Positions 28,701-48,255 of a stretch of DNA of 48,593 nucleotides are shown piece after piece. Within the stretch, counting starts at the first letter, position 1, and the number at the start of each line of letters is the position of its first letter. The notes beneath the pieces were generated by a model. It saw only the letters and a program-made list of their open reading frames with translations, searched no databases and had not been told where the DNA came from. The position numbers and the translations under genes were made by a program. Origin of the DNA: Oscillospiraceae bacterium (GTDB lineage: Bacteria > Bacillota > Clostridia > Oscillospirales > Oscillospiraceae); contig JAFXCL010000024.1 of assembly GCA_017521485.1 (NCBI GenBank), positions 1-48,593 of the forward strand, read 5' to 3'.

Positions 28701-31700
28701 CTGCAGTGTGGACGGAAGAACGATCTCCTCCAGTGCTGTCAGGTTTGCAAAGGCATAGGCGCCGATCTTTTCCACGCCCTCAGGAATAACAACCTTGGTA
28801 ATGGTGGATTCACCGATGTACCACTGCTTGGTGGTCTCTCTGTCATCGAACGCAAGCTCCTCTTCTGTCTTCGGCACATAGTCGAAGTTGGAGAAAGCGA
28901 AGTTGCCGATCTCTCTTAGGGACAGGTCATCGGGGATGGTAACCACACCGCCGTTACCATAATAGTGGGTCAAAGATCCGCCGGTAGACACATAGGGATC
29001 TTTTACTTCCACCGATACGGACTCGGAGTAGAAGGTGCTCTTTCCATCCATCATAACCTTTACGGTTACAGATGCATAGCCTTCGGAAACTGCCGTAACG
29101 ATGCCGTTGTTATCTACTTTCACAACATTTTCATTACTGGTTTCAAAGGAAACCGTAGTGTCATTGGGGAAATATGCTGCCAGATCGTAGTTGAGCAGGA
29201 CAGATTCAGAGGGGTACATAGACAGATCGTACTTACCCTCAAAGAACCGAATATCACCGGTGTCGCCCAGCAGCTTATCCTCACTTGCCAGCATAAAGTA
29301 GGCCTTCTGGGTAGTATAGCCGGTCAGCCGGAACACGTCTGCAACAGGCTTATCGTAGCGACGGTAGCCCTCATCGTCCTTACCGAGCACATTGACATTG
29401 AAGGTCAGGCTCTTGTTGGTCTTAGGATCACGGACTTTAACAACCGCAGCGCCGTCAGAAACAGCAACCAGCTTGTTGTTTACCACACGGACAACACTGG
29501 TTCTGGAAGATGTGAACTCCAGCAGCTCGCTCCAACCGGACTCAGGATAAACCAGCGGCTCCAAAGAATAGACCTCATTGACGCTCATTGTCAGGCCTTC
29601 CTCCAGACCGTCCACGAAGAAGTCCGCATAGTCAGCGGGCAGACCGATCTCATAGGTAGCGTAGTTGAGTGCATAGTCGTAGACTGTCACCACAAAGCTA
29701 TTGTCGTTATATGCGTTCTCTTTGATGTTATAGATGTAGTCTGTCAGTTCGAAGGTCACATAGGTAGTGCTGTTCTCCTGAGAATAAACAGGAGTCATAT
29801 ACTGCTCAAATGCCTTCATTTCCTGCATAGGATTGCCGTTCTCATCTTCGCCCATAACCACAACACCAAGCTGTGCAGACATTGCATAGTGGTTATCGTA
29901 GATGGCAGCCTTTGCATACAGGCGGTTCTTCTTCAGGGTCTTATCATACTCATAATAGTACTCAACATCTGTCACAGTGGGCGCTTCAATATCCACAGTC
30001 AGCGGGAAAGTATAAGTATTCTTCTCGTTGGTGGTCTCACCGCCGTCACCGTAATCCAGCCAGCCGGTAATGGTAACAGTCAGCTTACTGTTATTTGCCA
30101 GATTGTAGTCCATGGTGTCGAACTCGATGTCCACATTGGCAGGATAGATAGAGCCGCCGTCGCCATAGGACTTGCGTACATCCACATCCTCTGTCTCATA
30201 GACTACTTCGCCGGTGGTGTCGTCGGTAATCACAATATCCACCTTAGCTGCGTTTCTGAGCATACCTGTCCACATAAAGCGCAGGGAGTGGACCGTACCC
30301 TCCTGATTGGACAGGGCAATATAATCCTTTGTTGCAGAGATCACCATATCCTCGGGATCCTGCAGGAAGTAGTAAGAACCCAGATAGCTCACATAGTCCT
30401 GCTCCATGCCGCCCACCAGACGGGTAGCATAGGCATCTGCCTTCAGCTTATCTTCCTCATTCAGGCCCATATCCAGCTCATCGGCGTTGGTTTCGTAGTA
30501 GGTCAGGTCGAACAGAGGTGCCTGTGTCCAGTCACCGTAGAAGGCAAGATAAGGAACATTCAGGTCAATATCTGTACCCTTTGTGGCAGTCAGGGTCACA
30601 AAGCCCTCCACATACATACCGTTTGCAAAGGAGCTGTCCAGATATGCCTTATTCTCGTCGGTAAGCGTAACGGTAACCGTTACATCCATGCTGCTGCCTG
30701 CCTTCACAGTCAGCTTGTTTTTCTTCAGAGAGCCGCCCTCTGACTCTTCTGCAGAAATAGAAACATCTGCTCCTTCCAGAATGTAAGCTTCCTCTGTAAC
30801 CGTGGTCTTACCGGAATTCGTCTTTGTTTCGCTGACGCCTTCAGTCATCACATAAGCACCAATATCATAGGAAAGGTTTTTCTTTCCAAAGTTGGTGACA
30901 GTGAACTTCATTTCATACACGCCGGTCTTGTCCGGATCGCCACCCAGCTCCAGCTTGGGTGCATCCATCTCATTACCGTCTTTGTCGTAAGTGGTAATAT
31001 ATGCAGTGGTATTCAGGCAGGAAGCAAGATTTGCAAGACCTGCGCCCTGCTTTCTGATAGAATAGGGCTTTCCGTTGGTGTTCAGAATGATATCCGCAGA
31101 GGACATCATCAGCTTGTTCACCATCTTATTGACTGCAACATTGTCGTTTGCAATCTCCGGGAAATTCTCCACCACATACTGCCGCAGCAGCAGCACTACA
31201 CCTGCCAGGTTGGGGCAAGCCATAGAGGTGCCGGACAGATAATCGTATCCGCCGCCGGTAACGGAAGAGTAAATGTTTCCGCCGTGGGCAGTGATCTCAG
31301 GCTTGATCTTCAGATCCGGAGTGGGGCCCCAGGAGGAGAAGTCAGAAATGAACGGACCGGAGGTCTGGCTCTTCTTGATGGTCAGCTTGCCGCCGTTCTT
31401 CTCTGCCAGGAATTCGCCGTCATTCTGAGAAATGGAGCAGACTGCCAGCTTGGCATCGCCCACATTCATTTTCACATCACCGGATACATTATTGTAAATA
31501 ATAATACCGGCCGCGCCCTGAGTCTGGGCGATCATTGCTTTTTCTTCGAAGGTGTTGTCGCCACGGCGAACCAGCGCGATCTTGCCGTTTACATCCAGAC
31601 CTGTGTAGTCAGCAGTTCTGCCCACGCCGGGGATCACAACATATTCGTAGGTTTTAGAATCTTCCTCGCCCAACAGTGTGTCGAAGAAGCTCAGCTCCTT

Positions 31701-33041
31701 GGCTGCATTGTTATTCGCTTCATCAAAATAGATAATTGTGCCGTCATAGATCAGATAAGGCGTTTTCTTACCGCTGATGGATGCAACGGAAATAGTTCCG
31801 GGGTATGTACCGGGAGAACCGACCGTACCGGTATCGGGGTTGGAGGTCAGACCCAGGTTACCGTTTGCTTCAGAACCGTAGGCGGAGGAATAGCTGTTGG
31901 ATGCCGCAACGATCAGGCTGATACCAGCATTACGGATCTTCTCGTAAACGCCATAAACCAGTTCCTCGTCAGACTCACGACTAAAGCCGCAAGCAGTACC
32001 CAAGGACATATTGATGGCATCCACACCCAGAATAACACAGTCCTCCAGCGCGTCCAGGATCCAGGATGCCATAGCCGTGTCCACCACATCGGAGAACACC
32101 TTCATGGCAACCACCTGTGCATTGGGTGCAACACCGGTAATCACATCGTCCTTACCCACAATAACACCGGAAACGTGTGTGCCGTGGTTGTTGTGGGTGG
32201 AGTATGCATCGGAGTCGCCGTCAGCATAGTCAAATGCGAAAGGCACTTTCTTATTGACATACACATCGTCAACTGTAACACCTGCAAGAGCATTTGCCTT
32301 TGTATCGCCAACAACCTTAGCCACATCCTCATAGGTCAGGCCCAGATTGTCGGAAGTGAAATTGTCCACAGAGAAAGCAGTGTGATTGGTATCAAGACCT
32401 GTATCCAGAACCGCAACCACCATACCGCTTCCGTCGTAGCCGGAGTCACCGCTGTTAAAAATACCGGTATCAAAAACATTAACGGTATTCTCCACCAGCT
32501 CTGTTTCAGCCACATTATACACTTCGCCAATGATAGCATTCTCGCCCTTGTTCAGCGCCTTGCAGGTGGCAGCATAGTCCCCTGCCTTCACAAGGATCTC
32601 AAAGCCACTGAGAATGGTGGAGTAGTCCTTGCCGGTTTTATAGGCAACACCCTTCTCATCCAGCGCAGACAGGATCTCTGCCTTCCGATCCGCGATCTGT
32701 GCTTCAATCTTCTCAGCATCCTGGCTGTAGAGAGCATAGTCTGTAAAGCTTTCAGACTTGTCAGTATTCTCATAAGCGGACATAATATCAGGCATATCCA
32801 GAGAAATGATTACAGAGATCTCCTGATCGTCTTTCATTCCCTCCGGAAGCTGATAGACAACATTGCTGTCTAAATAGTCCTTATAATTTACATCCAACAA
32901 CTGGTTTAGCGTTTCAATATAGGACGCCTGATAGTTGGTTGCCTGAGCCTGAGGCACATAGAGCGCACAGACTAAGATCACCGCTGCCAGGGCAAACACC
33001 AAAGCCGATCGGGTGAAGGTAATCCATCTTGTTTTTCTCAT
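25758..33041 (-). CDS. Giant membrane-anchored subtilisin (S8) with BspA-like LRRs
   Basis: This 2427-residue protein has a signal peptide ending near A-Q-A-T-N. A propeptide follows, then an S8 catalytic domain with the triad D213 (V-L-D-T-G), H286 (H-G-T-H-V-S-G) and S606 (G-T-S-M-A-C-P). A PA domain (about 430-560) is inserted between His and Ser. Fn3-like and Big_2-like beta domains follow. Residues about 1364-2160 are many LRR_5/BspA-type repeats with the I-G-x-Y-A-F pattern. A single membrane helix lies near 2355-2378, followed by a ~48-residue acidic tail. There is no LPxTG motif. The ATG at 33041 starts the signal peptide; GTG/ATG codons upstream (to 33077) are less likely. It is the first gene before the importer, so it probably supplies peptides for uptake. 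Confidence 0.92.
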   Translation of the reverse strand: MRKTRWITFTRSALVFALAAVILVCALYVPQAQATNYQASYIETLNQLLDVNYKDYLDSNVVYQLPEGMKDDQEISVIISLDMPDIMSAYENTDKSESFTDYALYSQDAEKIEAQIADRKAEILSALDEKGVAYKTGKDYSTILSGFEILVKAGDYAATCKALNKGENAIIGEVYNVAETELVENTVNVFDTGIFNSGDSGYDGSGMVVAVLDTGLDTNHTAFSVDNFTSDNLGLTYEDVAKVVGDTKANALAGVTVDDVYVNKKVPFAFDYADGDSDAYSTHNNHGTHVSGVIVGKDDVITGVAPNAQVVAMKVFSDVVDTAMASWILDALEDCVILGVDAINMSLGTACGFSRESDEELVYGVYEKIRNAGISLIVAASNSYSSAYGSEANGNLGLTSNPDTGTVGSPGTYPGTISVASISGKKTPYLIYDGTIIYFDEANNNAAKELSFFDTLLGEEDSKTYEYVVIPGVGRTADYTGLDVNGKIALVRRGDNTFEEKAMIAQTQGAAGIIIYNNVSGDVKMNVGDAKLAVCSISQNDGEFLAEKNGGKLTIKKSQTSGPFISDFSSWGPTPDLKIKPEITAHGGNIYSSVTGGGYDYLSGTSMACPNLAGVVLLLRQYVVENFPEIANDNVAVNKMVNKLMMSSADIILNTNGKPYSIRKQGAGLANLASCLNTTAYITTYDKDGNEMDAPKLELGGDPDKTGVYEMKFTVTNFGKKNLSYDIGAYVMTEGVSETKTNSGKTTVTEEAYILEGADVSISAEESEGGSLKKNKLTVKAGSSMDVTVTVTLTDENKAYLDSSFANGMYVEGFVTLTATKGTDIDLNVPYLAFYGDWTQAPLFDLTYYETNADELDMGLNEEDKLKADAYATRLVGGMEQDYVSYLGSYYFLQDPEDMVISATKDYIALSNQEGTVHSLRFMWTGMLRNAAKVDIVITDDTTGEVVYETEDVDVRKSYGDGGSIYPANVDIEFDTMDYNLANNSKLTVTITGWLDYGDGGETTNEKNTYTFPLTVDIEAPTVTDVEYYYEYDKTLKKNRLYAKAAIYDNHYAMSAQLGVVVMGEDENGNPMQEMKAFEQYMTPVYSQENSTTYVTFELTDYIYNIKENAYNDNSFVVTVYDYALNYATYEIGLPADYADFFVDGLEEGLTMSVNEVYSLEPLVYPESGWSELLEFTSSRTSVVRVVNNKLVAVSDGAAVVKVRDPKTNKSLTFNVNVLGKDDEGYRRYDKPVADVFRLTGYTTQKAYFMLASEDKLLGDTGDIRFFEGKYDLSMYPSESVLLNYDLAAYFPNDTTVSFETSNENVVKVDNNGIVTAVSEGYASVTVKVMMDGKSTFYSESVSVEVKDPYVSTGGSLTHYYGNGGVVTIPDDLSLREIGNFAFSNFDYVPKTEEELAFDDRETTKQWYIGESTITKVVIPEGVEKIGAYAFANLTALEEIVLPSTLQAIEYGAFYGCTSLQKITFSGENNLQIINQSAFEQCDLKDTVDLSAVCIVSDYAFAGNKNLKEVVTSDSLLSIGQYAFAGCEKLETVTITAKKVKYGAYAFTGCDALKSFYVNAAVLPEGMFYECEGMKEVTVGPDVNNIGEFAFRDTKISTFKVENGNAAYRCGEGKYILSADGKTLVAVAPTITGAFAAKDIDGAEVTAIGNGAFSHNLEITSVELPAVTVVGDYAFGSAEEIASVTLGDLTSIGEYAFFETAITELPKFTVDTYIGKYAFSFTDITSVTIPDKMEINEGVFSECLKLQEVVIGNDVVIGKYAFTTNKDNVFVVKPYLDTEYYCYEFSGSLTSLTIGDNAVIGENAFSYAAGLESVTLGANAKIEKMAFYNTVNLKSIDLSKVQSIGDYAFSGDVYMVCMDTEMAYGAVSSEGYYIYSYYAPMLETVDLSAAASIGEYAFAYCKNLKQVVLGDGITEIPTYAFTGCTALTDINLDKVVTIADYAFSESGSLSYVNLSAAETIGEYAFVNGAQLQTVVLNPNGSKLSEGAFCYNAQLTKVENLSAATEIGDYAFAYTALSEADLSGAVSVGTLAFVKETAAPFKVTLGSNLKTLGDNPFAMCKIEPFRLVETNTFNGVDYENASDTYEVSDTVLVIEGSLYCKVPNGLELITYAGTDHVDVHLAEDTVRITSMAFAGTDIEMVTMPYATTSIGHKAFYGCDKLHTVVFGSYIAPILEEEFDPAYYDSLAHIPGSGDYGTYTDYNGNEVQIDSMDMVPYFMWNATGGMYSNVFYGANFVDYVGYVEDKLTMVRPANGQNYDSYVLSQYFDLVIDGERAPDKTTLAAIAAIKAIPSGVTYENRALVETARAAYDKVATHEQKALVLNYSDLVSAEQRILALTPTEEPAEVTEPEEKSGLGGGWIAVIVIASVALVGAAAVLVLKKLGFKVPAKIQAEEEQETAIPQDEAQEEVIVEEAAEDAEPQDEETSEE

Positions 33042-33101
33042 AGAGTAATCGCCTTTCATCTGAAAAAATTCGCACAATTATATGCATACATAGTCCAGAA
33101 T

Positions 33102-34079: not shown

Positions 34080-35543
34080 ATGAAAGAGAGATTAAAAAGA
34101 CTGATCCCCAGTAAGCGGAAAATTATGCAGCTTTACTTTGCGGTGCTGTTCAATGCCAACTTAAAAGGCTTCATCACCGGCAACATTTATCAGGGCAACT
34201 CAAAAATTATGTGTGCCCCCGGTATCAACTGCTATTCCTGCCCCGGTGCGATCGCTGCCTGTCCGTTAGGTTCGCTGCAAGGCTCGTTCAGTGCGGACCA
34301 CTCTACGATCTATTATGTAGGCGGTATCCTGCTGCTGTATGCGCTGATGTTCGGCAGAATGATCTGCGGCTGGCTGTGTCCCTTTGGATTGGTGCAGGAG
34401 CTGATGTATAAGATCAAAACCCCAAAAATGAAAAAGAGCCCGGTTACCCGCGCCCTTTCTTACTTAAAATATGCGATCCTAGTGTTCTTTGTGCTGATCG
34501 TTCCCATTATGTACGCATTCCGGGATACGCCTCTGCCTACCTTCTGCAAGTACATCTGCCCCGCTGGTACGCTGGAGGGCGGTATCGGACTGCTGAGCAA
34601 CAAAGTCAACGCCAGCTACTTCTCCATGCTCGGACCTCTGTTCACATGGAAATTCCTGCTGATGGTAAGTATTCTGGTGGGATGCGTGTTCATCTTCCGG
34701 CTGTTCTGCCGCTTCCTCTGCCCCCTTGGTGCGCTGTACGGCCTGTTTAATAAGATGTCCTTCTTCGGTGTCAAGGTGGTGCAAAGCAAGTGTACCGACT
34801 GCGGCTTGTGTGTAAATCACTGCAAGGTTGACATTAAGCACGTGGGCGATCAGGAATGTATTAGCTGCGGTTCTTGTGTGGATGTTTGCCCCACAAAGGC
34901 AATTCAGTGGAAAGGTCCGAAGATCAAGCTAAAGACCAATGAAGTTGGCCCTGATAAGCTCAAGCGCCGTAAGACCATTTCCCGGGTAATATCTGCAGTT
35001 CTGCTGCTGGGTATTCTGGGCGGTACGATCGCCTACTATTGGATGCAGCCGGATCAGACAAATCCCAATCCCGGCGTGATCACCGCAGACCGGGGCAATC
35101 AGGTTGGCGACCTGTGTTACAATACAGATCTTCCCATCGTGACCGCAAATGGCGTTTCTGAGGAAACACTGGATCCCACCGCAACCGGCACTGTGACGGT
35201 CATTAACTTCTGGGGCACATGGTGTACCCCCTGTGTGGCTGAGCTCCCCTACTTCGAACAAATCGCAAATGAATATGGCGAGGATGTGACAGTGATCGCT
35301 GTCCACTCCGCCCTGTCTTGCGAGACAGCGCCGGATTATATCGGGCAGTATTATCCCAACTCTAACCTGATCTTCTCTCAGGACAGCGGTGAAGGCTTCA
35401 ACGGCGATTATTACACCGCCCTTGGCGGCAGAGGCACTTACCCCTATACCGTCGTCCTGGACGAAACCGGCGTCATCACAGAAGTCTTCGTCTCCTCCCT
35501 TACCTACGACGACCTGAAAACGGCAGTCGACGATGCTATGTAA
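34080..35543 (+). CDS. NapH-like 4Fe-4S membrane protein fused to TlpA-like thioredoxin
   Basis: The 487-residue protein combines two functions. The N-terminal part has membrane helices and NapH/NosR/CcoG-like cysteine clusters: C45, C51, C54 and C61, then W-L-C-P-F-G near residue 100 and F-L-C-P-L-G near residue 215. Two ferredoxin motifs follow at about 237 (C-T-D-C-G-L-C-V-N-H-C) and 259 (C-I-S-C-G-S-C-V-D-V-C-P). After another membrane helix near 305-325 comes an extracytoplasmic TlpA/ResA-like thioredoxin domain with W-C-T-P-C near residue 381. Electrons from cytoplasmic donors could thus reduce external disulfides, a DsbD-like task. This is inference from domain order. It is probably co-translated with the CXXC protein upstream. 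Confidence 0.88.
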   Translation: MKERLKRLIPSKRKIMQLYFAVLFNANLKGFITGNIYQGNSKIMCAPGINCYSCPGAIAACPLGSLQGSFSADHSTIYYVGGILLLYALMFGRMICGWLCPFGLVQELMYKIKTPKMKKSPVTRALSYLKYAILVFFVLIVPIMYAFRDTPLPTFCKYICPAGTLEGGIGLLSNKVNASYFSMLGPLFTWKFLLMVSILVGCVFIFRLFCRFLCPLGALYGLFNKMSFFGVKVVQSKCTDCGLCVNHCKVDIKHVGDQECISCGSCVDVCPTKAIQWKGPKIKLKTNEVGPDKLKRRKTISRVISAVLLLGILGGTIAYYWMQPDQTNPNPGVITADRGNQVGDLCYNTDLPIVTANGVSEETLDPTATGTVTVINFWGTWCTPCVAELPYFEQIANEYGEDVTVIAVHSALSCETAPDYIGQYYPNSNLIFSQDSGEGFNGDYYTALGGRGTYPYTVVLDETGVITEVFVSSLTYDDLKTAVDDAM

Positions 35544-35695: not shown

Positions 35696-36415
35696 ATGCA
35701 AAAGAGTATCTTCCCTGATAAATATAGAATTCTCAGTGGCAGTATGCTGAAGCTGATCGCTATGATTTCTATGCTGATCGACCATACAGCGTTTATCCTT
35801 GCCCCGGTGCTTCCTTATATGGTTACTCCCCTTCTTACCTTTGCCGGCAGAGAAATCACCCTCTACTGGATCATGCGCAAGATCGGCAGAATTGCTTTCC
35901 CCATTTTCTGTTTCCTGATCACCGAGGGTTATACCCACACAAGAAATAAGTTTAAATACGGCTTGAACTTGCTGATCTTTGCGATTATTTCGGAAATACC
36001 ATTTAACCTAGTGTTTAATAGATTCTTTATATTTAAATATCAAAATGTTTTCTTTACTCTGTTTTTGGGTCTGTTGCTGATCTACATTCTTGAAAGCGTT
36101 TCTAATCAGTTCAAGAAAGCAATCCTGATGGGTATTGTTGTTGTAATATCAATGTATATAAACTGTGACTACGGCTTCAAGGGTGTATTGCTGATCCTGC
36201 TTATTTATTTGCTCAAGAATAATCCCGTACCACAAGCAATTCTCTCATATCCACTCCTATCCGGCGGTCTCGCTGCGCTGACTGCTTTCCTCCCAATTAA
36301 TCTTTATAGTGGCAAACGTGGCTTTATAAAATCAAATACCCTAAAATACGGATTCTACCTATTCTATCCAATTCATATTGTGATTCTGGTTATTATTAAA
36401 ACTATACTGAAATAA
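35696..36415 (+). CDS. TraX family membrane protein
   Basis: This 239-residue polytopic protein has seven or more hydrophobic helices. The family signature is the N-terminal L-K-L-I-A-M-I-S-M-L-I-D-H segment, followed by I-G-R-I-A-F-P-I-F-C-F-L. The C-terminus Y-G-F-Y-L-F-Y-P-I-H is also typical. TraX acetylates F-pilin in plasmid systems. Chromosomal Firmicute homologues are of unknown function and probably acyltransferase-like. The ATG at 35696 is chosen because AGGTG precedes it by 6 bases; a GTG at 35687 lies inside that ribosome site. The second half is AT-rich compared with the neighbours, suggesting acquisition. Confidence 0.88.
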   Translation: MQKSIFPDKYRILSGSMLKLIAMISMLIDHTAFILAPVLPYMVTPLLTFAGREITLYWIMRKIGRIAFPIFCFLITEGYTHTRNKFKYGLNLLIFAIISEIPFNLVFNRFFIFKYQNVFFTLFLGLLLIYILESVSNQFKKAILMGIVVVISMYINCDYGFKGVLLILLIYLLKNNPVPQAILSYPLLSGGLAALTAFLPINLYSGKRGFIKSNTLKYGFYLFYPIHIVILVIIKTILK

Positions 36416-36466
36416 CTTTATCTCAAGTATTGACCTCTTTGTATAACCATAAAAATAGATATAAAT

Positions 36467-36505
36467 TTACCCCGACTGGTGCATTCGTCCAGTCGGGGTA
36501 ATTAT
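36467..36505. terminator. Bidirectional terminator between traX-like gene and lipoprotein
   Basis: A 13-bp perfect stem (36467-36479 with 36489-36501) is flanked by AT-rich tracts on both sides. It ends the TraX gene and the convergent lipoprotein gene. Confidence 0.85.
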
Positions 36506-36510
36506 TATAA

Positions 36511-37086
36511 TTAATTACTACCGATAACTTCTTCTAGATCAATCGGCGTTGAACCATCAATTTCAATCAAATTATTGTTATATTCCTCTTTAGCAGTATT
36601 ATACCATACAAAAAATGCATCTATAGATTCAAAACTATTAATAAACGCCAACTGCTCATCTGCCGACATTGCGTTATAGACTACATATGTCATCTTGTCT
36701 GCTGGCGGCACACTAACATTAGGAACAGTAGTTTCAGTTGTTTCGTTATTTGTTGTATCTTCCGTAGGATTCTTTTGCTGTTCTACATAATCCTCATAAT
36801 GCTGAACGATCTCATCATACCACTCAAAAAATTCATCTGTTGTTTCAAATGTATTCATAACAGCTTGTTGCTGTTCTGCAGTCATTTTATTGAACTCCGG
36901 AAGCGTCAAAGTATCAACATTAGGGAGTGTATCTTCTGTTTCTTCACCAAAGAATGTATCATTAGTAGGCGCCTGTGTTGCATTTGTAGTTTCCGGTTCT
37001 GTATCGGTGTTACTATCACCACAGCCTACAAAGGTTGAAAAAATCAGTACTGCAATCATTAAAAATAACAGAAAATTTCTTTTCAT
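36511..37086 (-). CDS. Lipoprotein with two copies of an F-x-x-W-Y module
   Basis: The 191-residue protein has a lipoprotein signal peptide ending F-V-G-C-G, then a Thr/Glu-rich spacer. Two related segments of about 45 residues follow, one at ~62-107 and one at ~131-178. Both share the pattern M-(T/S)-A-x-(Q/E)-Q, then (N-T/N-S)-F-E, then F-F-x-W-Y. The segments are separated by another Thr-rich linker. This is an internal duplication. The function is unknown. It is an acidic surface lipoprotein in an AT-rich stretch, not in an obvious operon. Confidence 0.75.
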   Translation of the reverse strand: MKRNFLLFLMIAVLIFSTFVGCGDSNTDTEPETTNATQAPTNDTFFGEETEDTLPNVDTLTLPEFNKMTAEQQQAVMNTFETTDEFFEWYDEIVQHYEDYVEQQKNPTEDTTNNETTETTVPNVSVPPADKMTYVVYNAMSADEQLAFINSFESIDAFFVWYNTAKEEYNNNLIEIDGSTPIDLEEVIGSN

Positions 37087-37116
37087 AATTGTAACCTCAA
37101 GTAAGATTTATAGTAG

Positions 37117-37605
37117 TCATTCTTGAATAAAAAATTTGTCTTCAAACCACTTGCCTGGATTTCCCTCAATGTATTTCCATACCTCTCGGTAATCACTATC
37201 GTTGCGGATCACATGGTCGTAAAACCCCTTTTGCCAAACAGAAAATCCTGCCTGACTGGACACAGCACCCTTCGTCAGCCGGATCACCGTAGATATTGTA
37301 GGGGCGATCATTGGTCGCCCGTCCTGATCCGTATTGATTTGCAGCAGCAAATGAATGTGATTGGGCATAATAACATAATGATCCACAGTTATTGCCGGAT
37401 AATGCATTGGTATTTCTACAATGCTGTTTTTAACGATTATGCCAATATCTGTCAGTGGTATATTTTCCGGGCGATCAATGATCGCCCCTACATTTTTCCA
37501 AAATAGATTCTTCCGTCCTAATGTGCAGACTGTTATGAAATACGCATTGGGAGCGCTGTAATCATAGTCTGTCAGCCGGTTTTCTTTTCGTTTCGGTAAT
37601 ACCAT
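37117..37605 (-). CDS. REP-associated tyrosine transposase (RAYT, IS200-like Y1)
   Basis: The 162-residue protein is a single-domain HUH/Y1 transposase. The metal-binding motif is P-N-H-I-H (residues 81-85). A candidate catalytic tyrosine lies in K-Y-I-x-x-N-P near the C-terminus. Such proteins process REP palindromes as single strands. Two family-B palindromes lie inside the reading frame and encode residues 39-46 (V-G-A-I-I-D-R-P) and 96-103 (G-R-P-M-I-A-P-T). Three more lie upstream of the gene. There are no IS ends of its own that I can see. The start has no clear ribosome site. The gene is intact, so activity is possible. Confidence 0.88.
   Translation of the reverse strand: MVLPKRKENRLTDYDYSAPNAYFITVCTLGRKNLFWKNVGAIIDRPENIPLTDIGIIVKNSIVEIPMHYPAITVDHYVIMPNHIHLLLQINTDQDGRPMIAPTISTVIRLTKGAVSSQAGFSVWQKGFYDHVIRNDSDYREVWKYIEGNPGKWFEDKFFIQE
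37297..37320. repeat. REP-like palindrome, family B, inside the RAYT gene
   Basis: TGTAGGGGCGATCATTGGTCGCCC lies within the coding sequence. It differs at one position from the intergenic copies at 37624 and 37740. Confidence 0.85.
37469..37492. repeat. REP-like palindrome, family B, inverted copy inside the RAYT gene
   Basis: This copy is in the opposite orientation to the copy at 37297, with CCCCTACA at its right end. It is a perfect GGGCGATCA/TGATCGCCC stem within the reading frame. Confidence 0.85.
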
Positions 37606-37623
37606 AACAATTCATTAGCGGCG

Positions 37624-37762
37624 TGTAGGGGCGATCATTGATCGCCCGAAATTAGACGGATAACGGGTGTAGGGACGCGATGGTTGATGTGGGTTTGCGG
37701 GCGTTCGGTGAACGCCCCTACAAGGGTATCGTAAGCGTGTGTAGGGGCGATCATTGATCGCC
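37624..37762. repeat. Cluster of three family-B REP-like palindromes
   Basis: This intergenic stretch upstream of the transposase holds copies at 37624-37647 (forward), 37699-37722 (inverted, arms GGGCGTTC/GAACGCCC) and 37740-37762 (forward). Stem sequences differ but stay complementary, and the TGTAGGGG end is constant. Alternating orientation resembles REPIN/BIME arrays. The last copy abuts the pqqD-like stop codon and may serve as its terminator. Confidence 0.85.
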
Positions 37763-37769
37763 AGAACAA

Positions 37770-38033
37770 TTATGCTAAGAAATCGTGCTCTTTTAAGCTC
37801 TTAACAAACTCGGAAATAAACTTCTTTACTTCCTCCTGGTCTACATTTTCAAAATTAGCAACCACTGCCTGCAGCAGACCTTCTTCTGTCTTTTCCTCCT
37901 GCAGCTGTTCCCACAGGAATTTCGCAGAATCATTCAATGTGATCATCACAGACAGGTCTAAATCATCACCGGTAGGCAATACAACATTTTCTCCTGCAAC
38001 CGTACTAATAATATATCCTTCTTTAATTTTCAT
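37770..38033 (-). CDS. PqqD-like (RiPP recognition element) protein
   Basis: This 87-residue protein matches the PqqD fold by its size, its N-terminal beta segment G-Y-I-I-S-T-V-A-G-E-N-V-V-L-P, the L-N-D-S-A-K-F-L-W-E-Q-L helix, and the C-terminal helix F-I-S-E-F-V-K-S-L-K. PqqD-like proteins bind leader peptides of ribosomally made peptides and deliver them to modifying enzymes. Its start overlaps the kinase-like gene stop by 4 bases (ATGA), so the two are translationally coupled. A 32-codon gene upstream is the obvious candidate substrate. A true ring-forming enzyme is not seen in the window. Confidence 0.82.
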   Translation of the reverse strand: MKIKEGYIISTVAGENVVLPTGDDLDLSVMITLNDSAKFLWEQLQEEKTEEGLLQAVVANFENVDQEEVKKFISEFVKSLKEHDFLA

Positions 38034-38767
38034 AATTTAATCTCCTTGGTAAATTTTTGACCGGACATTGCTTCATATGAAACGATTGCCGCTTCGGGAT
38101 CCATGTTGCATTTCAACTTCCAAACAGGAACTCGCGTCATCAATTCATTTAGCAGGTTTAGAAGCTTAACACGATATTCAGACTTTCTGGGACGATTTAC
38201 CTGTTTCATAATTGCTTGAATTGCATTAGCACCGCAAAACCGTTCAATTTCATTGTTTTCACCGCGTTCTAAACAAGCAATTCCAGCAACAGGGATCCGG
38301 GTATTCACACTAATATCATTCTTTCCGCTCCAGGGCGTACCGTAGGCATACCAAACACCATCAACTAATCTAAGTGCTGGCTTATCATCATTCAAGATAT
38401 AAGCGCGATCACCAAACATATTTAACCACAGATTTGTATGGGTAGATTTACCTGTACCAGAATCAGCAGTGAACAAATAAGCTTTTCCATCTACAACGAT
38501 GCAAGATGAATGAAGCATCATCCCTTGATGATTTAATAGATTTTTGTAAAAAAGCATACCTGATATCATGTATTCACGAAGATCGTGGGAAACTTCTTTA
38601 AAGTAATCATCAACAGGAATCATACCTAAATTTTCAACCGTGCTGGAATCTATTGCAAAATCTTCTATATCAAAGGGTTCACATAAGTATGGTCTTGCTT
38701 GCAATTCTGTTCTGCCGAATGTTTTCATTCGCACCTTTAAATCAGCTATAATATAAAAGTTTTCCAT
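38030..38767 (-). CDS. HPr kinase-like P-loop protein (lasso-kinase-like)
   Basis: This 245-residue protein has a P-loop A-D-S-G-T-G-K-S-T-H near residue 103. A downstream N-D-D-K-P-A-L motif resembles the HprK/PEPCK-like kinase core. It lacks the N-terminal domain of the genuine HPr kinase at 47.3-48.2 kb. HprK-like proteins occur next to PqqD-like genes in lasso-peptide clusters, where they phosphorylate the peptide. That precedent and the ATGA overlap with the PqqD-like gene suggest a peptide kinase here. It has its own promoter and a GAGG site 6 bases before the ATG. The gene is more AT-rich than the core genes. Confidence 0.8.
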   Translation of the reverse strand: MENFYIIADLKVRMKTFGRTELQARPYLCEPFDIEDFAIDSSTVENLGMIPVDDYFKEVSHDLREYMISGMLFYKNLLNHQGMMLHSSCIVVDGKAYLFTADSGTGKSTHTNLWLNMFGDRAYILNDDKPALRLVDGVWYAYGTPWSGKNDISVNTRIPVAGIACLERGENNEIERFCGANAIQAIMKQVNRPRKSEYRVKLLNLLNELMTRVPVWKLKCNMDPEAAIVSYEAMSGQKFTKEIKL

Positions 38768-38803
38768 ACAGTCCTCACATCGTAATTATATAAAATTATA
38801 TAT

Positions 38804-38832
38804 ATAATACCACATTTCACAGTAATATGCAA
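38804..38832 (-). promoter_or_regulatory. Promoter of the kinase-like/PqqD-like pair
   Basis: On the minus strand TTGCAT (38827-38832), a 17-bp spacer and TATTAT (38804-38809) lie ~37 bp before the start codon and downstream of the peptide terminator. The pair can therefore be expressed separately from the peptide. Confidence 0.65.
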
Positions 38833-38883
38833 CATAATTTATCTAGCAAAATTCATATAATGACTAGACCCTTCTTATGCAGC

Positions 38884-38916
38884 CAAAAAAATCGTGCCGA
38901 TGTTACTCGGCACGAT
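38884..38916 (-). terminator. Intrinsic terminator after the 32-codon peptide gene
   Basis: A 10-bp perfect GC-rich stem (38891-38900 with 38907-38916) with loop TGTTAC is followed on the minus strand by a run of seven T. It begins 10 bases after the peptide stop codon. Confidence 0.93.
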
Positions 38917-38926
38917 CTTTTAAGCA

Positions 38927-39025
38927 TTATTCGTCTGCTTCAGGACCCTGGAAGCTACCAACAGGTTCCATAGTAATGTGCTCGGAAACGATGGTATAGG
39001 CCTTAATCTCGGGCTTATTGAACAT
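38927..39025 (-). CDS. Small peptide, candidate RiPP-like precursor (32 aa)
   Basis: This short gene encodes a peptide that begins M-F-N-K-P-E-I-K-A-Y and ends G-S-F-Q-G-P-E-A-D-E. It has a strong AGGAGGG site, an ATG start, a TAA stop and its own terminator, so it is very likely real. Residues F2-x-x-P5-x-I7 match the Y-x-x-P-x-L leader motif bound by PqqD-like domains in lasso systems, with conservative changes. There is no signal peptide and no cysteine. Ser14, Ser24, Thr11 and Thr18 are possible phosphoacceptors. It lies 45 bases after the secreted 920-residue protein and upstream of the kinase-like/PqqD-like pair. A canonical lasso core is not evident, since too few residues follow the acidic positions. 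Confidence 0.72.
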   Translation of the reverse strand: MFNKPEIKAYTIVSEHITMEPVGSFQGPEADE

Positions 39026-39051
39026 AAACTCAACTCCCTCCTATTTAAATT

Positions 39052-39071
39052 AGATAAACAGAAATTTATCT
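39052..39071 (-). other. Hairpin between the secreted protein and the peptide gene
   Basis: A perfect 7-bp inverted repeat AGATAAA/TTTATCT (39052-39058 with 39065-39071) begins at the stop codon of the secreted protein. No T run follows, so it may be an RNA processing or stabilising element that lets peptide and protein levels differ. Confidence 0.5.
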
Positions 39072-41833
39072 CAATAAGTATAAGTCTCGCCAACAACTAC
39101 AGTGCCAGTATCAGTCACCAGCTTAGTAGTCAATTTCAAATCCTGATAATTGTTGCAATTATCAATAGGACAAGCAAGGATAGAACCAGAAGCGAGAGCT
39201 TTAGCAAGTTCCTCAGAACAAGAATATGTCATAGACTGATACATATCACCATAAGCAGTAGGTGCTGTCCAAGTTGCTTCAACAATGAAAGACACACCGT
39301 GAGCGGACGCGCCGTCAGCAGCAATAGGAGTTTTAGCAACACCAGGGAGGTTGAAGTAGAATGTGATACTTGCTGTACCAGCTTCTTTATCTGCAGTAAA
39401 GCCAAAATCGCCCTCAGCCGCACTATCATACAACTGGGTATGGGTAAACACATAGTAATCACCCATCTTCAATGTAATCAAATGATAATCAACGCCATTA
39501 GATGCTGTTTGAGTATATATTGTATCGTTGGAAATGCTAATCTTACTAGAATCTACATACAATTTAGCATAATCCTTGGAAGAAGAAAGACGACTACCAG
39601 TAACAACACTATCAGTAAGACCAATCACATATGCTGCCTTCAGATCAAATGCAACAAGATCAAGAGTAACTCCACCCTTAATAGTCAAGATAGCATCAGC
39701 GTTATTCAGGTCATCGGCAATCATAGTGACAGTTTCACCGGACTTTGCTGCGTTCAGAGCATCCTCGACGGTTGCGTAAGGAGTATCGCCGATCTTAGCA
39801 ACAGGATCTGCAACAGGCTCAACACCAACAGCAGTCAGGGTGTAGACGCCGTCGCCAGCGACCCACTCGTAGTCAACGCCATCAATGTTGATCAGCTCAG
39901 CAGCCATCATGTTGGTGGTGTTAATGGTTGCACCGGCAGCGCCAACAACGAAGTTGCCGTTCAGTGCAGCAATGTAGGGAGTGCTCAGGTTGTTGCCATT
40001 CAGGTTCAGAGTTACGCCTGCGAACAGGGTGATACCGGTTTCAGATGTAGCATCAGCAACCAGGACGATCTCGTCGCCGTTCACAGCAGCCTCAACAGCC
40101 TCGTCGATGGAATAGTACTCAGCTTCATCGATGGTTGCAATGGGAGTCATGTAGTTCAGGGTAGCAGTAGTACCAGCTTCCATTTCAATCATGACAGGCT
40201 CGCCTGCCATAACAGTCATGGGGGACCACCAAGCACTGCAATCGAGCTTACCGTCCTTTTCAGCGGTGTAGGTGTAGAACACAGTAGAATCAGTCTCATT
40301 TATATGAGAAGTTACACCTTCCAGCACGGAACCCCATTCATAGGGGAAGTTGTAAGAACCGTCAGCCTCGATCTCATCAATTCTGCTGAATGTATAGGTG
40401 TTTGCACCAAGCTCAGAGTCGTAGCTATAAGCAATAATGGTAACGGACTCGCCGGGGGACATCTTATATACGATACCGCCCTGGTACTCGAAAACGCCCA
40501 TCCAAATGTACTGGAGGTTTGCAAAACCGCCGTTGTCAGCCTTCACGAACAGGTAGTAGGATTCCTCGGAATTATTGGTATAGGTAAACTCCTGATTGTA
40601 CTCACCGGAGAATGTCTCAGGGTGTGTATAAGGAAGGGACTCGATCACGATGGGGCCAGCGGGCTCCTCAGGATCGGAAGGATCGGAAGGATCGGTGGGC
40701 TCGGAAGGCTCGGAAGGCTCAGTGGGCTCCTCCACGGAGAACTCAACCTTAACAGTAACAGTACCTGCAGGCAGCTCCCAAGCAGAAGGATCATATGTAG
40801 CAGCCATAATACGAATATCGTCGCCCTCGGAAACTGCAATGACCTGAGGATTCACAACAGGATCACTATCAGACCATTGGGTATCGCCCATGCCGCCAAC
40901 TTCAACAGACTTGTTGTCAACCTGATACATCCAGCCCAGATCGCCAGCATCAACACTTACAGAGATATAGCCGTCGCCCTCGGCAATATACTTGTACCAG
41001 TAAGCTGTGCCAGCAGCAGCAATCGTAGCGGTATATTCGGTGCCAGAAACGATTACTTCGGGATTTTCCTCGGTGCCAAGGGGGACTTCTACTTCGACCA
41101 TAGTGAAGGTGTAGGTCTGATCCTGCTCAGTCTTGTTGGTCAGCTTGATCTCAACAGCGTTCATACCTTCAGCGATTTCCAGGTCAACAGTGTTAGTCAG
41201 AACAGGATTGCCGTCCTCACCGTTGATGCTGCCCAGAACATCTTCGCCCATTACGATCTTAACGCCTTCGCCAGATACATTAACGGTCTCGCCGCCGAAC
41301 CACTGCAGTTTGCAGAAAACAGTCTCGCCAGCGGGAACAGTAACAGTATCGATTGCCTCAACACCCATCTCCGGAGCCACATTGGGGTTAGCAATCACAT
41401 AAGGATTGGACTGACTGCCTTCCAGACCAACTAAGTTGATGGTAGCGGTGCCCTTCCAGTCAACATCGCTGGTATACAGAGAAATCTCGTAAGCCTCACC
41501 AGCAACAACAGAATAGCCTTCAAAGCCCTCTGCTGTGATATTGACGCCTTCTACTTCAGCAAAAACAGTAACACCAGAGTAGTCTTCACCTTCTTCACCT
41601 TCTGCAACTTCTTCTACATAAGGTGTGAAGTTGATGCCCATCACGGTGCCGCTTTCTTCGGCAATCCAAAGAAGCTCTTCAATAATAAAATTATTTTCTT
41701 CGAGCAGTGCATAATTGCCGCCGTCGATGAAGTCGGTGCCACCAACATTCCATTCGGGAGCAGCAAAAGCACTAAAGGGGATCATGCAAAGGACCATTGC
41801 AAGAACAATGATCAGAGATAATGCTCTTTTCAT
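39071..41833 (-). CDS. Large secreted protein with Pro/Glu/Ser linker
   Basis: The 920-residue protein has a Gram-positive signal peptide ending F-S-A-F-A-A-P. Beta-rich modules follow, with repeats of the kind seen in extracellular carbohydrate- or peptide-binding proteins (for example G-T-E-E-N-P-x-V-I and A-x-A-G-T-A-Y-W-Y-K-Y). A low-complexity linker built from E-P-S/E-P-T/D-P-S triplets lies near residues 367-390. Two later modules begin A-x-I-D-E-A-E-Y-Y-S-I-D-E-A-V and A-x-I-G-D-T-P-Y-A-T-V-E-D-A-L. No membrane anchor or sorting signal is seen, so it is probably released or held by a partner. The AGGAGG site is 9 bases before the ATG. It is co-directional with the downstream peptide gene. 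Confidence 0.8.
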   Translation of the reverse strand: MKRALSLIIVLAMVLCMIPFSAFAAPEWNVGGTDFIDGGNYALLEENNFIIEELLWIAEESGTVMGINFTPYVEEVAEGEEGEDYSGVTVFAEVEGVNITAEGFEGYSVVAGEAYEISLYTSDVDWKGTATINLVGLEGSQSNPYVIANPNVAPEMGVEAIDTVTVPAGETVFCKLQWFGGETVNVSGEGVKIVMGEDVLGSINGEDGNPVLTNTVDLEIAEGMNAVEIKLTNKTEQDQTYTFTMVEVEVPLGTEENPEVIVSGTEYTATIAAAGTAYWYKYIAEGDGYISVSVDAGDLGWMYQVDNKSVEVGGMGDTQWSDSDPVVNPQVIAVSEGDDIRIMAATYDPSAWELPAGTVTVKVEFSVEEPTEPSEPSEPTDPSDPSDPEEPAGPIVIESLPYTHPETFSGEYNQEFTYTNNSEESYYLFVKADNGGFANLQYIWMGVFEYQGGIVYKMSPGESVTIIAYSYDSELGANTYTFSRIDEIEADGSYNFPYEWGSVLEGVTSHINETDSTVFYTYTAEKDGKLDCSAWWSPMTVMAGEPVMIEMEAGTTATLNYMTPIATIDEAEYYSIDEAVEAAVNGDEIVLVADATSETGITLFAGVTLNLNGNNLSTPYIAALNGNFVVGAAGATINTTNMMAAELINIDGVDYEWVAGDGVYTLTAVGVEPVADPVAKIGDTPYATVEDALNAAKSGETVTMIADDLNNADAILTIKGGVTLDLVAFDLKAAYVIGLTDSVVTGSRLSSSKDYAKLYVDSSKISISNDTIYTQTASNGVDYHLITLKMGDYYVFTHTQLYDSAAEGDFGFTADKEAGTASITFYFNLPGVAKTPIAADGASAHGVSFIVEATWTAPTAYGDMYQSMTYSCSEELAKALASGSILACPIDNCNNYQDLKLTTKLVTDTGTVVVGETYTY
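40661..40734. repeat. 9-bp tandem repeat encoding the acidic proline linker
   Basis: Imperfect repeats of GGATCGGAA / GGCTCGGAA type encode the E-P-S / D-P-S triplets of the secreted protein. Such repeats can change copy number by slippage without shifting frame. Confidence 0.7.
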
Positions 41834-41907
41834 TCGTTTTTTCCTCCTGATTTATAATTCGGCCTTGCGGCCTATAAAAACCCAAGATGGTCTGCAAGAC
41901 TTCCGGC

Positions 41908-42027
41908 AAGTGCAGGATGAGGGCTCACCACCGCCTTTTTAGGGGTGGAGAGAAGGTACTGACCGTGGGCGGCGGTAAGTACAAAATTTCCCGCTATGCG
42001 GCGGGAGCAAGCCCCCGCCCTGCACTT
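41908..42027 (-). other. Highly structured intergenic element upstream of the secreted protein
   Basis: The element is bounded by the inverted repeat AAGTGCAGG (41908-41916) and CCTGCACTT (42019-42027). It contains nested inverted segments, including ACCGCC/GGCGGT, GGTACT/AAGTAC and a GCGGGAGCAAGCCCCCGC hairpin. It lies in the 232-base gap between the lipoprotein stop and the secreted protein start. I do not recognise a known riboswitch. It may be a MITE-like repeat or a structured leader. Confidence 0.55.
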
Positions 42028-42065
42028 CCCATCCGTTCCTTAGAACATCGGGAGTTTTCCGTTTG

Positions 42066-42482
42066 TTAGGCAATCGCCTGAAGGGTGATGATTGCTTCGG
42101 TAGAACCGTCCGGGAAGAAGAACCGCTCTTCTTCGGTGGTATAGCCATAACCCTGAGGCATAGCCATCAGCTTGATCTCATAATCTGCATCGGGCATATC
42201 ATAATAGGAAGCAATGCCGTTTGCATCTGTCTGAGCAGGTGTGCAGGTATCCAGGCAGATCTGGACAAATACACCGGCAATGGGGTTGCCGCCCTCGTCA
42301 ACAACCTTGACGGTGTGGGAGGGAGTGGCAGCTTCGGTGGCTTCCGTTGTATCCGCAGGCAGGGTGGTTGCCGCAGTGGATGCAGTGGAAGGCTGGGTGT
42401 TATCTGCATTGCCGCCGCAGGCGCACAGGCCAATCATCAGGCAAAGAGCCAGCAGAAATGCGGCAAAACGTTTGGTGTTCAT
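42066..42482 (-). CDS. Small lipoprotein with carboxypeptidase-regulatory-like domain
   Basis: The 138-residue protein has a lipoprotein signal ending L-C-A-C-G-G and a Thr/Ala-rich spacer. A C-terminal beta-sandwich follows, of the prealbumin/CarboxypepD-regulatory type. It is recognised by V-K-V-V-D-E-G-G-N-P-I-A-G-V-x-V and the later T-D-A-N-G-I-A-S-Y-Y motif. Such domains are common in surface proteins and pilin-like backbones. The two cysteines in I-C-L-D-T-C could form a disulfide. AAGGAG lies 10 bases before the ATG. It may be transcribed together with the secreted 920-residue protein downstream. Confidence 0.8.
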   Translation of the reverse strand: MNTKRFAAFLLALCLMIGLCACGGNADNTQPSTASTAATTLPADTTEATEAATPSHTVKVVDEGGNPIAGVFVQICLDTCTPAQTDANGIASYYDMPDADYEIKLMAMPQGYGYTTEEERFFFPDGSTEAIITLQAIA

Positions 42483-42561
42483 AAGGGGTCGTCTCCTTTC
42501 AGGGTGCTAATCTACGGCCCATTAAAAGGGTATAGTTACACTGCTATCAATGATCACTAAC

Positions 42562-46317: not shown

Positions 46318-47284
46318 ATTTCATTGTAACGCCGGGAAAGTATTCTTCCGCAAAGTCTACCTTATCTACCTGAAAGGACTTTCCGTTCAGGTATGCGAGG
46401 ATGCCAGCGTCAGTTGTGAACCGGAAGGTCAGCTTGTAGGAATACAGTGCCTGATAATTCCGGTCTGATTTTCTATTGAGCTTACCGTATTTGCCATCAC
46501 CCAGAAGCGGGTGTCCTGCGTGAGCAAACTGAGCGCGGATCTGGTGGGTTCTGCCGGTAATGAGATCACATTCCACCAGAGATAGCCCGTTTTTTGAAGA
46601 GAGGGTCACATAATTGGTCTGGCAGGTTTTTGCGCCCGGCTGAGGTTTGTCTGTAACAAACACCCGATTCTTTTTCGCGTCTTTAAACAGGTAGCCTTTC
46701 AGACTGCCGGATGCCGGCTTTGGCGTTCCCTCAACAATTGCAAGGTAGCGCTTTTCCAGTTCCCGATCTTTGATCTTTTGGTTGAGAATCCGGAGGGCTT
46801 CTGCATTCTTTGCAGCGATTACGATGCCGCCGGTATTGCGGTCGATCCGGTTGCAGAGCGCGGGGGCAAATGAATTCTCCCCCCTTGGTCTCCATTGGCG
46901 TTTCTGGTAAAGATATGCCTGAATATGATCGATCAGGGTTCTTCCGTACTCTGCGCCGTCGTGGGGATGGACTGCCATACCCGGGCGCTTGTCTGCCAGA
47001 AGGATGTTATCATCCTCATATACGATATTTAATTTAGGGGTTGCGACAGTCAGGTAGGCATTATCCTCCCGTGGTGCTTCAAAAAACTCATCGTTGATAT
47101 AAAGCTGGAGCACATCCCCTGCCTGCAGGCGGGTATCCCGCTCTGCTCTGCTGCCGTTAAGTTTGATCCGCTTGATACGGATATATTTCTGTGCCAGGGA
47201 TGCGGGCAAAAGCGGAACAGCTTTACTTAAAAAACGGTCCAGCCGCTGACCTGCGTCGTTGGCACCTATTGAAAATTCCTTCAT
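46316..47284 (-). CDS. RluA family pseudouridine synthase
   Basis: The 322-residue protein has an N-terminal S4 RNA-binding domain (G-Q-R-L-D-R-F-L near residue 12) and a RluA-type catalytic domain. The catalytic aspartate lies in N-R-I-D-R-N-T-G-G-I-V near residue 145. G-R-T-H-Q-I-R-A-Q is also present. It isomerises uridine to pseudouridine in rRNA or tRNA. The exact target site cannot be assigned by sequence reading. Its start overlaps the hprK stop by 4 bases (ATGA), so both are co-translated. Confidence 0.92.
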   Translation of the reverse strand: MKEFSIGANDAGQRLDRFLSKAVPLLPASLAQKYIRIKRIKLNGSRAERDTRLQAGDVLQLYINDEFFEAPREDNAYLTVATPKLNIVYEDDNILLADKRPGMAVHPHDGAEYGRTLIDHIQAYLYQKRQWRPRGENSFAPALCNRIDRNTGGIVIAAKNAEALRILNQKIKDRELEKRYLAIVEGTPKPASGSLKGYLFKDAKKNRVFVTDKPQPGAKTCQTNYVTLSSKNGLSLVECDLITGRTHQIRAQFAHAGHPLLGDGKYGKLNRKSDRNYQALYSYKLTFRFTTDAGILAYLNGKSFQVDKVDFAEEYFPGVTMK

Positions 47285-48231: not shown

Positions 48232-48255
48232 AATATCCACCTCTTTCTGCCCTCT

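Follow-up and report, generated by a model that had tools for sequence, protein, structure and literature searches.

Introduction

Linear polyphosphorylated peptides (LPPs) are RiPPs described from the lpp cluster of Paenibacillus alginolyticus (Popov et al. 2026, PMC13381572). According to the main text of that paper, the cluster combines a precursor with a YxxP leader, an HprK kinase, a discrete RRE, a SipW-like peptidase, an MsbA-like exporter and an NTP transferase, and it holds no cyclase; the kinase, LppK, adds several phosphates to one core serine and does not accept threonine in its place, residue D70 of the RRE, LppB, hydrogen-bonds the leader tyrosine, and the function of the family is given as not known (PMC13381572). 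Paeninodin-type lasso clusters, too, are described in the portions of the literature drawn on here as having an RRE, an HprK-like kinase and an NTP transferase as their accessory set (PMC13381572, PMC7533575).

Here we analyze a stretch of 48,593 nucleotides from an Oscillospiraceae bacterium (the window, in the genome that we call G000). We propose, with a probability of about two in three, that the window holds one half of a split LPP-type RiPP system, in which a 32-aa open reading frame (ORF) encodes the precursor and the product would be the phosphopeptide partner of a surface protein.

Results

Gene order and sequence elements

In the order of minus-strand transcription, the relevant part of the window comprises the gene for a 920-aa protein, a gap of 45 nt, the 32-aa ORF, a terminator, the kinase gene, the RRE gene, a REP/RAYT element and a lipoprotein-like gene:

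39071..41833, minus strand: 920-aa secreted surface-type protein with a signal-like N terminus, gene upstream of the 32-aa ORF
38927..39025, minus strand: 32-aa putative precursor peptide ORF, with F2-x-x-P5-x-I7 and an acidic C-terminal part free of K and R
38886..38921, minus strand: intrinsic terminator 3' of the peptide ORF (15-bp stem, loop of 6, U-rich)
38030..38767, minus strand: HprK-like P-loop kinase (LppK-like), 245 aa
37770..38033, minus strand: PqqD/RRE adaptor (LppB-like), 87 aa (PF05402, E = 1.7e-13)
37296..37766, no strand: five REP-like palindromic repeats directly 3' of pqqD (repeat search)
37117..37605, minus strand: REP-associated tyrosine transposase, RAYT (NF047646, 63.2 bits at a cut-off of 80; PF01797, 20.5 bits, below cut-off)
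36511..37086, minus strand: 191-aa lipoprotein-like protein, its tail common to a lipoprotein on contig C49

A preliminary description of this DNA had proposed a short coding gene with a strong ribosome site, a terminator behind it, the F2-x-x-P5-x-I7 motif, a Thr at residue 18 and a 4-base overlap of the HprK-like and PqqD-like genes, and each of these features is borne out. AGGAGG lies 11 nt 5' of the peptide ATG, the codon usage is coding-like (see below), motif and T18 are present as claimed, and the overlap spans 38030-38033. The terminator was missed by a simple pattern scan and seen by folding (z = -6.9; none of 200 shuffles equally stable). The further suggestion of a separate terminator and promoter stands for the terminator; no promoter of the enzyme genes was seen by a sigma-70 pattern scan, a weak test whose null carries little weight. 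Rfam gave no match at the gathering threshold in 36000-42500. The same description had passed over the 920-aa secreted protein, the REP/RAYT element and a protease gene on contig C49.

Because the gap between the 920-aa gene and the peptide ORF is only 45 nt, with neither promoter nor terminator seen in it by pattern scans, the two genes are probably in one transcript. Directly 3' of pqqD, at the site occupied here by the REP/RAYT element, relatives have a peptidase gene, and we suspect this site to be a breakpoint; since the REP palindrome of the window is not found in the fetched stretch of C49 (L073), a breakpoint common with C49 stays unproved. An ORF similar to the lipoprotein gene at 36511-37086 also lies upstream of the kinase in one relative (L192).

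Kinase and RRE

The kinase has the P-loop GTGKST; G-K-S-T is invariant, and NDDKP nearly invariant, in 17 aligned homologues. Its NCBIfam matches, ScmC (E = 7e-9) and HprK-related kinase A (E = 8e-4), are both below cut-off, and a sequence search of the PDB finds HPr kinase weakly (E = 0.26-0.64). It is the sole match in the window genome to this kinase query, just as the RRE is the sole PqqD match at E up to 1. A profile of the RRE family, searched against PDB sequences, finds LppB (9x8z, E = 1.5e-6), but the lasso RREs TbiB1 (3e-11), PbaB1 (9x90, 5e-9) and TfuB1 (6e-8) all score above it, so that the RRE may belong to either clade, LPP or lasso. A tblastn search of the kinase against 50,697 phage records gave two matches (E = 3e-44 and 1e-16), both to unannotated 'Bacteriophage sp.' records from human faeces, and the kinase gene may be of mobile origin.

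Precursor-like peptides in relatives

A search of 400 genomes of the family found relatives of the window kinase in 86, and the 40 loci fetched around the better matches repeat the same parts: representatives match ABC/MsbA, NTP_transf_5 (PF14907) and the capsule genes Wzz, CpsB/CapC and Polysacc_synt_2. Over 122 sequences (the window, the C49 stretch, the 40 family-level loci and 80 named loci), profiles detected the kinase in 121, PqqD in 86, the peptidase in 74, the ABC exporter in 60 and NTP_transf_5 in 32, counted anywhere in the stretch. At the level of the genus, 72 of 136 genomes have the kinase and 70 of 136 the peptidase. Together with the match to the LPP system as its paper describes it (PMC13381572), these counts give good support to the earlier idea of a RiPP-like phosphopeptide without a macrocycle.

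A peptide profile built from 19 peptides, that of the window included, detected 44 precursor-like ORFs (54 starts) of at least 8 bits in 40 of the 121 kinase loci, whereas none of 8493 decoy ORFs from reversed sequence reached that score. Nineteen of the 44 are the profile's own seeds, and 24 of the 40 positive loci are among the 80 named loci, which gave no seed. The family pattern is [Y/F]xx[P/A]xhEhxxFxxEDhITTS followed by an acidic tail. In an enlarged set of 94 peptides, whose 12-bit limit the window peptide does not reach, the motif opens with Y in 66 and F in 26, has P (69) or A (18) as the third residue after it, then a hydrophobic residue and E/D; F stands at position 11 in 80, E and D at positions 14 and 15 in 64 each, I at 17 in 55 and S at 20 in 63, and 93 have a C-terminal part of net negative charge. 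The precursor-like peptides are 31-77 aa long (median 40; search span 24-100 aa), and ten members that were scanned had no Pfam or NCBIfam match better than E = 0.1.

The peptides tend to occur together with the kinase across the genus: a profile match (E up to 0.1) was found in 47 of 136 genomes, 43 of which have the kinase, compared with 72/136 overall (p = 1e-11); the four exceptions are G455, G464 (a weak match), G467 and G519. The profile (A2) finds nothing in 29 of the 72 genomes with the kinase, that of the window included; among the four genomes with the closest kinases, G440 and G442 have a match and G436 and G415 do not, and the 5 kb upstream of the kinase in L192, L193 and L195 showed no family-like ORF. 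In G279 all seven matches (two of them weak) are remote from the kinase, on different contigs or separated from it by 60 kb or more.

Leader residue and RRE residue

Considering all 43 loci with an RRE and a nearby peptide, the leader has Tyr in 28 of the 29 where the RRE carries D or E at the place aligned to LppB D70, and Phe in 9 of the 14, the window included, where it does not (p = 3e-5). The window has Phe in both places, F2 of the leader and F72 of the RRE. A tree-aware test of this covariation on the kinase tree was not significant, with two well-supported independent contrasts (five in all); as the contrasts are so few, the covariation is suggestive only. The short leader and an RRE pocket with a Tyr/Phe choice are open to a mutational test.

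The 32-aa ORF

Positions 38927-39025 encode MFNKPEIKAYTIVSEHITMEPVGSFQGPEADE. Its codon log-odds, trained on ten other window genes, is 0.413 per codon, higher than in any of 1983 null windows, which were taken from the shifted frames and the antisense of six genes, and close to the coding median of 0.393. With such coding-like usage, the ORF is very probably translated.

Whether the product belongs to the precursor-like family is less straightforward. The peptide carries the FxxPxI leader motif, matches no Pfam or NCBIfam family at E up to 1 and is without the common Ser at motif position 20. When left out of the profile it scores 1.3 bits, which 221 of 2000 of its own shuffles reach and another window ORF exceeds, and profile A2 finds nothing in the window genome at E up to 10. 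By tblastn the peptide has matches in 8 of 135 other congeners (E up to 10), the best at E = 0.024 inside a 271-aa open frame, none of them a credible homologue. The preliminary description had looked to conservation of the small ORF beside the enzyme pair; this holds for the kind of ORF, found at 40 of 121 kinase loci, and fails for this very peptide, which has no close homologue in 136 congeners.

The missing Ser and the leave-one-out result would suit a different reading, in which the enzymes are working LPP-type enzymes, their true precursor is encoded in an unassembled part of the genome, and the short gene behind the surface-protein gene, though real, is unrelated or in decay. The incompleteness of the assembly (83.9% complete) and the relatives, whose precursors often lie far from the enzymes, favor this reading as well. 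It does not sit easily, however, with the fully coding-like codon usage of the ORF, with a best pairwise alignment to the family (an L255 peptide) that only 10 of 1000 shuffles match, with the position of the ORF behind a secreted protein and ahead of the kinase, as for many family members, or with F2 and F72, which fit the Tyr/Phe trend. With the motif held fixed, the remainder of the peptide also matches two G442 peptides, for which 35 and 79 of 5000 shuffles do as well, and a G418 peptide (56 of 5000), but not a G440 peptide (1214 of 5000), these four targets having been picked by hand. Four other genes on the minus strand of the window (products of 2439, 696, 191 and 138 aa) are followed within 400 nt by no small ORF judged family-like by eye. 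We weigh a precursor elsewhere as a serious but unlikely alternative and take the 32-aa ORF to be the probable precursor gene.

A probable second half on contig C49

The window genome is a MAG of 51 contigs. Its sole PF14907 (NTP_transf_5) protein is encoded on contig C49 (L073:13485-14654, E = 2e-47), adjoining genes for a lipoprotein-like protein (L073:14826-15554), a 154-aa candidate SpI-type peptidase (L073:15598-16062) and a 541-aa MsbA-like exporter (L073:16140-17765; ABC_membrane 3e-25, ABC_tran 1e-24). Residues S36, H75 and D89 of the peptidase are kept in 12 of 12 seeds. Pfam gives no match for this peptidase or for that of L034; Peptidase_S24 matches the peptidases of L061 (above cut-off) and L036 (below) and has no match in that of L069, the representative peptidases being about 150 aa long.

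The tail of the C49 lipoprotein is 43% identical over 60 aa (E = 2e-11) to the product of 36511-37086. The C49 stretch and the window both have a GC content of 0.483, and their tetranucleotide correlation is 0.958, compared with 0.935 between the window's own halves and at most 0.909 for 12 congener loci. The C49 peptidase is 51% identical to the peptidase that adjoins kinase and RRE in G279, and its best congener match (66%) is in G436, where 261 bp separate it from the kinase nearest to that of the window (62%). In 23 of 25 fetched congener loci, the kinase has a peptidase gene no more than about 1.5 kb away (all 20 of L192-L211 as well as L034, L064 and L068; the exceptions are L044 and L070). 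The NTP transferase, for its part, is unlinked from the kinase elsewhere in the genus too, as on contigs C7 and C6 of G279.

All six core LPP functions have a candidate in the window genome, and kinase, RRE, peptidase, exporter and NTP transferase are full-length open frames. From these comparisons, the assignment of the enzymes to an LPP-type pathway appears fairly firm, and the gene set is most likely split over two loci, the window and C49. The kinase/RRE pair had previously been called a minimal system or a remnant, with no protease or cyclase visible. The peptidase, exporter and NTP transferase on C49 speak against both labels. A candidate for the protease not visible there lies on C49, and no cyclase is clustered here.

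That the pair is left over from a larger lasso or LPP cluster in decay, its pathway lost, might be read from the RAYT/REP element standing where relatives have the peptidase gene, and from there being no peptidase or exporter beside the pair. We find such decay very improbable, given an intact other half on C49: the kinase keeps its Walker A motif and the peptidase S36/H75/D89, and RRE, exporter and NTP transferase are likewise intact in the genome. The lasso leader peptidase family PF13471, moreover, is absent from the window genome, and the two genomes of the genus with strong matches to it are without this kinase.

Adjacency to surface-protein genes

A same-strand ORF ends 5-30 nt before 36 of the 94 peptide genes and before 187 of 1343 control genes; for an ORF of at least 500 aa (at least 300 if cut) at that distance, the counts are 30 of 94 and 38 of 1343 (p = 7e-20). 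The controls come from the same loci, whose selection rested on a kinase or a peptide and which are partly non-independent. The pairing extends beyond the enzymes: among the 44 peptides of 38 loci selected for a peptide that does not adjoin the kinase (mostly on a different contig or over 5 kb off, with L259 at 2.7 kb from a kinase match), 11 are preceded at 5-30 nt by an ORF of 300 aa or more. Not all peptides are placed in this way: some form tandem arrays, as in L244 with five, and some follow other genes or a wider gap. By a simple rule, 18 of 20 complete upstream proteins have a signal-like N terminus, compared with 206 of 755 other ORFs (p = 1e-8). Pfam, applied to nine upstream proteins, found Big_4 Ig-like, BspA-type LRR, MBG plus GDSL-like or InlB-like repeats in five; a sixth had one match, below cut-off, and the last three had none.

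The window peptide follows the 920-aa secreted protein by 45 nt, outside the 5-30 nt range. Parts of the 920-aa protein resemble secreted proteins that precede family peptides (for instance L210, E = 4e-8, and L267, E = 7e-5; ORFs of the fetched loci searched), a likeness that may be caused by common repeat modules. Read-through from surface protein into peptide was rejected: the gaps differ by single bases, so the two have no fixed frame.

Discussion

Our data are consistent with the following scheme for the split LPP-type system. The 32-aa precursor, probably co-transcribed with the gene for the 920-aa secreted protein, would be bound through its F2-x-x-P5-x-I7 leader by the PqqD protein, acting as an RRE, and presented to the HprK-like kinase, which would phosphorylate a Ser or Thr of the peptide (S24, T18 or S14). 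The SpI-type peptidase encoded on C49 would then remove the leader and the MsbA-like exporter secrete the acidic core; a further group may come from the NTP_transf_5 protein. Once mature, the phosphopeptide probably acts extracellularly, jointly with the co-encoded surface protein, a partnership that we infer from gene order, chiefly in relatives.

Precursor genes are recurrently paired with surface-protein genes, even where the enzymes are not nearby, and this links the peptides to the cell surface. We found no report of such pairing in the literature searched, a search that left most subscription journals and all bioRxiv preprints outside its scope. Tentatively, and with less than even confidence, one may go further and imagine, in such Clostridia, a single LPP-type machine serving many scattered precursor genes, each the short 3' companion of a large secreted protein and expressed along with it, with the phosphopeptide as its dedicated partner; LPP biosynthesis would then be a pathway of surface-protein maturation, not an antibiotic pathway. 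If this were true, the partner could serve as an anchor, a ligand or a glycan-attachment primer. That LPP-type pathways can be split over the genome also has a practical side, as a cluster-based search would therefore see only a 'minimal' or 'orphan' pair.

Comparison with known systems

The kinase and the PqqD protein recall ScmC and ScmD (E = 0.002 for the latter) of the SynChlorMet cassette, which was rejected, the scores (35.5 bits for ScmC at a cut-off of 125; 18.2 for ScmD at 100) being far below the cut-offs.

With paeninodin-type clusters the system shares an RRE, an HprK-like kinase, an NTP transferase and a [Y/W]xxPx leader motif, but the window genome is without the lasso leader peptidase and no cyclase is clustered. 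A lasso system was rejected on these grounds: the B2 leader peptidase family PF13471 has no match in the window genome and no Asn synthetase is clustered with the RRE. Across the genus, PF13471 is found in 43 of 136 genomes at E up to 0.001, 13 over cut-off, and the only strong genomes are G314 and G428. The analogy drawn earlier between T18 and the lasso -2 Thr loses its footing with the absence of PF13471. A phosphorylated lasso peptide whose cyclase lies elsewhere in the genome could claim the accessory set shared with paeninodin (PMC13381572, PMC7533575, as far as these sources were drawn on) but would have to do without PF13471 and rely on the sole PF00733 (Asn_synthase) protein of this incomplete MAG, a 618-aa open frame on contig C8, apart from the RRE, which may be an ordinary AsnB, and we give this reading hardly any credence.

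The likeness to LPP is the closer one: [Y/F]xxP-leader candidates, a discrete RRE, an HprK-like kinase, an SpI-type peptidase, an MsbA-like exporter and an NTP transferase, with no cyclase seen; capsule-type genes, found close to the kinase in L033 and L034, are a further shared trait. The Ser-His spacing is 39 in both the C49 peptidase and LppS (S29, H68), although the Asp follows the His after 14 residues in the former and after 25 in the latter. Compared with the main text of the LPP paper (PMC13381572), the leader continues after the motif as ExxFxxEDVITTS here and as LxHQxIxFETxxS there, and the precursors are 31-77 aa (24-100 searched) instead of 35-200. That main text does not contain 'surface', 'adhesin', 'S-layer' or 'Clostridi', and it deals with LPPs of Bacilli, whereas the system described here is from Clostridia. 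Finally, unlike the published lpp cluster, the gene set here is split over two loci, and the precursor genes of the relatives are scattered, often behind surface-protein genes.

Surroundings of the kinase and pqqD genes

Directly behind pqqD, which encodes the PqqD-type leader-binding adaptor (RRE), lies a REP/RAYT element, and the end of its last REP-like copy at 37766 immediately adjoins the pqqD stop at 37770. In relatives, the place held by this element in the window is occupied by the gene for the SpI-type leader peptidase. Other features of the window, those outside the element being assigned from sequences read by eye, are as follows.

25758-33077, (-), 2439-aa protein, putative subtilisin-type protease with leucine-rich repeats
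34080-35543, (+), putative fusion of a ferredoxin-type membrane protein with a thioredoxin-like domain
37117-37766, RAYT gene and five REP-like palindromes
47281-48240, (-), putative ordinary HPr kinase/phosphorylase, judged from its look

The last of these is distinct from the HprK-like kinase of the window (38030-38767). Behind the gene for the 2439-aa protein, a family-like small ORF was looked for and none was seen. Relatives of the HprK-like kinase are encoded by MT835590.1 and MT835698.1 (E values of 3e-44 and 1e-16), two faecal "Bacteriophage sp." records that carry no annotation.

Peptides and surface proteins of relatives

One locus of a relative, L244 (G405:C8:7022-8056), encodes five peptides in tandem that differ in their middles and share an almost identical C terminus (NPNCENEGPAGDAFL), which is also present elsewhere in the same genome (L257 and L261). 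Many surface proteins encoded upstream of peptides have, as read by eye, a similar helix-like C-terminal motif, MMxYGDSAxxYF; endings of this type occur at loci L249, L250, L253-L256, L260, L266, L269, and others.

A second type of small peptide, containing cysteine and with a similar start, YxKP, was observed at L071 and L259; at L071, it sits at the end of the gene for a 1177-aa secreted protein. These peptides may represent another RRE-dependent family.
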